A DNA stretch of 29,647 nucleotides from a virus: the IMG/VR virus record IMGVR_UViG_3300009503_000092, positions 1-29,647 of that record; one strand, 5' to 3'. The notes beneath the pieces were generated by a model. It saw nothing but the letters and a program-made list of their open reading frames with translations. It did not search any database and was not told where the DNA came from. Shown here piece by piece: positions 21,089 to 21,360 of the stretch; position 1 is the stretch's first letter; every line of letters starts with the position of its first letter. The position numbers and the translations under genes were made by a program.

Positions 21089-21128
21089 AGAAAAGGGGTA
21101 GAAAAAATGAAAATAAAACCCAATAAAG

Positions 21129-21192
21129 TTATCCACAAGTTATCCACAATATATTCACAAGTTATCCACAAGTTATCCACAGGTTATTCACA
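21129..21192 (+). repeat. Six DnaA boxes at exact 11-bp spacing
   Basis: Nine-base boxes start at 21129, 21140, 21151, 21162, 21173 and 21184. Four are the perfect TTATCCACA, one is TTATTCACA, and the third is ATATTCACA (one extra mismatch). All point the same way, 11 bp apart, about one helical turn, which would place DnaA on one face as a continuous filament. Confidence 0.88.
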
Positions 21193-21237
21193 GGTTAAAT
21201 TACTCATAAATCAACACTTAAATGTTTTTAACGGGTT

Positions 21238-21255
21238 CTACTATTACTATTATTA
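21238..21255 (+). other. DnaA-trio element
   Basis: The plus strand reads CTACTATTACTATTATTA, so the bottom strand read 3'-5' gives GAT-GAT-AAT-GAT-AAT-AAT. This is the trinucleotide series known from bacterial origins, where DnaA binds one strand to open the duplex. The first eleven bases equal the CTACTATTACT stretch I recall for Bacillus subtilis. Its orientation relative to the boxes on its left agrees with that system. Confidence 0.65.
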
Positions 21256-21266
21256 TAATATATTCT

Positions 21267-21304
21267 TAAATACTCTTAATATTATGGTAAATACTCTTAA
21301 TATT
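21267..21304 (+). repeat. Two 17-bp direct repeats, 21-bp period
   Basis: TAAATACTCTTAATATT occurs at 21267-21283 and again, identical, at 21288-21304. The period is two helical turns. They sit inside the AT-rich part beside the trio and could be the melted region or a binding site. Confidence 0.75.
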
Positions 21305-21306
21305 CA

Positions 21307-21360
21307 AGTAACCTTAATATCAGGTAACCTTAAATTAAGGTAACCTTAAATTTAGGTTAC
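21307..21360 (+). repeat. 16-bp iterons (AGGTAACCTTAA)
   Basis: GTAACCTTAA recurs at 21308, 21324 and 21340, and a partial copy (AGGTTAC) follows at 21354, with an exact 16-bp period. The last copies form an imperfect inverted repeat (GTAACCT at 21340, AGGTTAC at 21354). It ends 22 bases before the next gene's ATG, so it could be an operator for that operon as well as part of the origin. Confidence 0.7.

Follow-up and report, generated by a model that had tools for sequence, protein, structure and literature searches.

The region at 21.1-21.36 kb of a 29,647-base contig of an uncultivated virus, which is referred to here over its full length as the window, is on sequence grounds a reasonably probable phage replication origin opened by host DnaA. 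The usual teaching is that phages sidestep DnaA by means of initiators of their own. Here, a tight row of DnaA boxes is followed by an easily melted trio-like stretch, so that the host initiator itself probably starts replication. The box array, the orientation of its elements, the unstable DNA beside them and the lack of a recognizable initiator or helicase gene make a DnaA-directed origin the reading with the best support, and the interpretation in the first-pass annotation is supported in part.

The array consists of six DnaA-box-like 9-mers on the + strand (21129..21192) with a centre spacing of 11 bp, all in one 11-bp register (starts at 21129, 21140, 21151, 21162, 21173 and 21184). Four of the six are perfect copies of TTATCCACA; the boxes at 21151 (ATATTCACA) and 21184 (TTATTCACA) have two mismatches and one mismatch, respectively, and an isolated fifth perfect copy of TTATCCACA is found in the window at 18431. 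A spacer of exactly 45 bp (21193..21237, + strand), with a small GC step (AACGGG; AACGGGTT) at its end, leads to the DnaA-trio-like run CTACTATTACTATTATTA (21238..21255, + strand); no other (C/T)TA x6 run occurs in the window on either strand. The trio-like run sits 3' of the boxes and its complement reads 3'-GAT-GAT-AAT-GAT-AAT-AAT-5', which is the orientation relative to the boxes that is found in chromosomal origins. It is followed by two sets of direct repeats, both with strand unspecified: AT-rich repeats with a 21-bp unit (2.3 copies, 21256..21303) and repeats with a 16-bp unit and the palindromic core AAGGTAACCTT (3.8 copies, 21296..21357). The latter may serve a dimeric phage protein as binding sites of the iteron or operator type, and they provide the direct repeats beside boxes and AT-rich DNA that characterize iteron-type origins. 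When duplex stability was calculated from nearest-neighbour energies for 100-bp stretches across the whole window, the candidate DNA-unwinding region at 21238..21337 (strand unspecified) was the second least stable 100 bp (z 3.0), placing helically unstable DNA next to the boxes as in an origin. The first-pass annotation had reported the boxes, the four perfect copies, the spacer, the GC step, the trio with its orientation and both repeat families, and all of these were recovered as described.

Comparison with dinucleotide shuffles of the window revealed no comparable cluster. The maximum was one exact box per 60 bp in 300 shuffles versus four observed, and both 11-bp box pairs and (C/T)TA x6 runs were absent from the shuffles. 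A run of six (C/T)TA units arose in 9 of 20,000 shuffles of the AT-rich 170 bp downstream alone. The array, trio and AT-rich repeats together are thus far beyond chance, and this, with the trio on the correct side and strand, favors a DnaA origin. An assembly accident of one contig can be ruled out, since the 240-bp region is letter-identical in an overlapping contig that is 99.97% identical over 14.5 kb. A search of Rfam gave no match.

The earlier description of this element as a mimic of a chromosomal oriC stands for the array, the strand orientation and the adjoining unstable DNA, but not for the distance between boxes and trio. A survey of chromosomal unwinding modules set the box-to-trio distance at 16 bp or less and saw it peak at 10-13 bp (PMC8287927), and in B. 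subtilis the unwinding region is inactivated by reversing the trio-proximal boxes (PMC6669920). With the bacterial oriC basal unwinding system, which is found in Bacillus subtilis and many phyla, the phage element shares tandem boxes with 2-bp gaps, CTA/TTA units that follow 3' of the boxes in the same orientation, and adjoining AT-rich DNA. The phage array likewise contains several close matches to TTATCCACA at regular spacing, and its six (C/T)TA units in the correct orientation exceed the three that define a trio in that system. By contrast, the phage boxes are more numerous, form one strict row and lie in an early operon, and the last good box is 45 bp from the trio, with no good trio-proximal box. 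A degenerate box within the spacer, which had been thought possible, was sought there and none convincing, and none with fewer than three mismatches, was found; the best 9-mers, AAATCAACA and TTACTCATA, each have three mismatches and lie 22 bp and 30 bp before the trio, respectively. The sole 9-mer within 16 bp of the trio, TTTTTAACG, is 5 bp away and has four mismatches. The element is therefore not a member of the basal unwinding system in the strict sense, and the 45-bp gap counts against a DnaA origin.

The spacing within the array has clear bacterial counterparts. The box geometry 0/11/33/44 was found at 20 loci in bacterial genomes, several of which carry 5-11 boxes at 11 bp, and the proposal that the phage array is tighter than chromosomal ones was thus mistaken. 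Candidate oriC regions of the Hydrogenothermaceae (Aquificota) show 11-bp arrays with this same geometry, followed by a spacer of about 35-70 bp and then by a trio of the CTATTATTA type and AT DNA; to judge from the sequences, these look the most alike among the chromosomal origins compared. The Hydrogenothermaceae regions nevertheless keep one or two consensus boxes directly before the trio, which the phage is without. More generally, a box followed within 30 bp by (C/T)TA x3 occurred at about 1-2 loci per genome in five bacterial genomes and at none with the reversed control, and this orientation specificity is a further point for a DnaA origin. Plasmid origins may also combine such elements, as in P1 oriR, a plasmid origin with a Rep protein, repeats and DnaA boxes. 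The Palibaumannia plasmid NZ_CP011788 resembles the phage in that its six boxes at 11 bp lie beside AT-rich DNA and are accompanied by additional direct repeats, but it has a recognizable repA, whereas none is present in the phage early operon.

The gene content around the array was also considered. The window represents an incomplete genome from which some late-region DNA is missing. Genes encoding terminase, portal, major head and tail proteins run leftward from 19.26 kb, with the early operon running rightward from 19.84 kb. The overlapping contig adds approximately 2.2 kb rightward and re-enters leftward genes, encoding a LamG-like tail protein and, by reading, an apparent cell-wall peptidase; the early operon, from the divergence at 19.3-19.8 kb to the convergence at about 29.1 kb, is therefore complete, and the missing DNA belongs to the late side. 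In addition to a phosphoesterase, this operon encodes a PD-(D/E)XK (Cas4/RecB-like) nuclease, part of a recombination module shortly 3' of the array (22337..23089, + strand), and a RuvC-like Holliday junction resolvase (24567..25142, + strand). Between these two genes lies one for a PHROG 19042 protein (23103..23849, + strand), whose position and RSMAQTRAVSKAFR motif make it a possible single-strand annealing protein. No early-operon match to an initiator, DnaB or another replicative helicase, a DnaC/DnaD loader, a primase or a polymerase was found in Pfam or PHROGs, and no initiator-like domain was seen in AlphaFold models of two early proteins of no known family, which were of low confidence (mean pLDDT 50 and 56) and were set aside. 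The missing initiator and loader genes are notable, but several early proteins without an assigned family may be initiators, so that this is not proof. In G001, a distant relative with a capsid about 30% identical, inspection of early frames by eye suggests an initiator resembling DnaD and a loader resembling DnaC.

Most genes on both flanks point away from 19.3-21.3 kb, a layout that replication in both directions from this interval would favor. GC skew tracks gene direction and does not pick the exact origin site; it switches at 19.3 kb and shows no change at 21.2 kb. The lack of a change at 21.2 kb is a point against a DnaA origin at the array.

DnaA boxes are widespread among other viruses. 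Perfect box pairs at 11 bp were found in at least 120 IMG/VR stretches (L005-L124), compared with 2 for a reversed-pattern control; tandem 11-bp boxes are thus strongly enriched in viral contigs, mostly without a trio or an AT-rich flank. Among 107 viral 11-bp box clusters, none had as many as three consecutive (C/T)TA units, and the 3' flanks were no richer in AT than the 5' flanks (Wilcoxon p 0.65). It follows that boxes alone are no proof of an origin, that arrays often serve another role, and that an array with a trio represents a rare subclass; the trio-less state of most viral clusters is itself a point against a DnaA origin. Clusters of TTATCCACA were likewise found in named phages, namely Escherichia phage P483, Lactococcus phages AM, LW81 and WRP3, Vibrio phage BD5, the T5-like PM135 and gokushoviruses. 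These resemble the window in having TTATCCACA clusters, at 11-12 bp in P483, mostly in unannotated non-coding DNA, but no trio run longer than two units was present in the six phage regions examined. Escherichia phage P483 (L144, KP090453), which is T7-like, has eight boxes in unannotated non-coding DNA, with a spacing of 11-12 bp for six.

Scanning of viral contigs for a box followed within 30 bp by (C/T)TA x6 yielded six stretches, versus two in the wrong orientation. That the margin over the orientation control is only this large speaks against a DnaA origin, and about half of the six stretches look accidental. For gaps of 31-60 bp, the matches were the sister contig of the window and three contigs that were already known. 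Two of the six stretches from the scan up to 30 bp, on the unannotated phage contigs L140 (IMGVR_UViG_3300032030_000312, 28 kb) and L142 (IMGVR_UViG_3300009285_000021, 44 kb), have multiple boxes, the last of which is 4-11 bp from CTACTACTACTA or CTACTACTACTACTA, with AT DNA adjoining. Like the window, these contigs carry box clusters (at 11 bp in L140) and a CTA-type trio in a phage early region, and their neighboring genes encode RecT and PD-(D/E)XK or YqaJ proteins; the nuclease and RuvC-like resolvase near the window's array form a neighborhood of the same kind. They differ from the window in that their box-to-trio distance fits the chromosomal rule, and they are unrelated phages, no window protein having matched either contig. 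The much more canonical element of L140 and L142 makes them, on a convincing reading of their sequences, better candidates for DnaA-trio phage origins than the window, and their existence is a point for a DnaA origin.

The array could, alternatively, act as a DnaA sink or switch, which lowers free host DnaA and delays host initiation or controls early transcription, with replication taking another route. Such a role would agree with the frequency of DnaA-box clusters without a trio or AT-rich flank in viral contigs and named phages, and with the location of the array between early genes inside one operon. A sink, however, needs neither a (C/T)TA x6 run nor a melted zone, a run of even three units being absent from the 107 other viral clusters, and no strong + strand promoter over the array was found; we regard this explanation as unlikely. 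A rather improbable alternative places the true origin in the divergent intergenic gap at 19262..19842 (strand unspecified), where a phage initiator on seven 13-bp repeats (TTGTGACATAATC) would melt AT-rich 11-bp repeats (about 15 units), leaving the array at most an accessory role. These iteron-like repeats lie by the GC-skew switch and by the 100 bp with the lowest duplex stability in the window (19624-19723); a less stable repeat region 1.5 kb away is a point against an origin at the array, and the early proteins without an assigned family could supply the initiator. On the other hand, the two low-confidence models included, no initiator-like domain was recognized in the early proteins, the skew switch follows gene direction, and the gap is also a divergent promoter region, so that its 13-bp and 11-bp repeats may be operators. 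Its perfect sigma-70 promoter (TTGACA-16-TATAAT) lies at 19260-19287 on the - strand and faces the leftward late operon.

Two further explanations appear far less probable. In T5, the features of a proposed injection stop signal include DnaA boxes (PMC13250531), and the region has been described with repeats and DnaA boxes; T5-like Demerecviridae such as Proteus phage PM135 also have boxes in long non-coding stretches. That the array is a comparable DNA-entry or structural signal is nevertheless very improbable: the T5 signal lies in the terminal repeat by pre-early genes, but the array sits inside the early operon, some 1.3 kb away from where the early genes begin, and the record has no end repeats and the window no pre-early gene set. 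Slightest of all is the chance that the boxes are codons of a small gene with an 11-residue peptide repeat. An open frame of 78 codons (21107..21343, + strand) does span the boxes and the trio, with an ATG and an SD-like leader resembling those of its neighbors. Its purine content (0.48) and GC skew (-0.34) are opposite to those of all 17 early genes measured (0.54-0.72 and +0.17 to +0.83, respectively), and the frame was taken as spurious for this reason; it is probably not a real gene. Moreover, the period is 11 bp and not 33 bp alone, and a codon repeat leaves the matches to the DnaA consensus unexplained.

If the region is an origin opened by host DnaA, the favored mechanism is that of a composite origin, in which DnaA-ATP would fill the six helically phased boxes and extend to their 3' side, where it would engage the (C/T)TA repeat strand. 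The adjoining AT-rich repeats would then melt, host helicase and replisome would load, and forks would depart both ways. A phage protein bound to the 16-bp palindromic repeats would probably assist, stabilize or time the opening and so compensate for the absent trio-proximal box, by analogy with the iterons of plasmid origins that also hold DnaA boxes, such as that of the Palibaumannia plasmid.

Searches with the terminase, the capsid and a 138-aa protein yielded nothing beyond the near-identical contig and relatives of about 30% identity or less, and no diverged relative with the array region was found with these queries. The portal is 21-26% identical to portals of HMO-2011-like and other podoviruses, and no named phage gave a megablast match to 16-26 kb of the window. 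The exact array geometry suggested a host among the Hydrogenothermaceae, whose genomes contain YopX-like and distant terminase relatives; the YopX-family gene at 27321-27680 has relatives in two of them (L192, L193), one with DNA similarity of 85% over 55 bp. Tetranucleotide similarity was no better than that of other AT-rich contigs, and no spacer-like match to 9.7-29.6 kb of the window was recognized among the matches listed. A Hydrogenothermaceae host is therefore a mere lead.

No phage trio element has been described in the open literature searched. It is possible, though doubtful, that the window comes from a tailed phage that lacks an initiator and helicase loader of its own and relies solely on host DnaA to start replication, from a box-plus-trio element of the chromosomal type, as one of several independent lineages together with L140 and L142. 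If the region is indeed opened by DnaA, replication of this phage would be tied to host initiation control through the chromosomal melting code. Its origin would also offer a naturally occurring and far simpler setting in which to study DNA opening by DnaA, and the distance of 45 bp would put to the test how remote from a box a trio can be and still be used.
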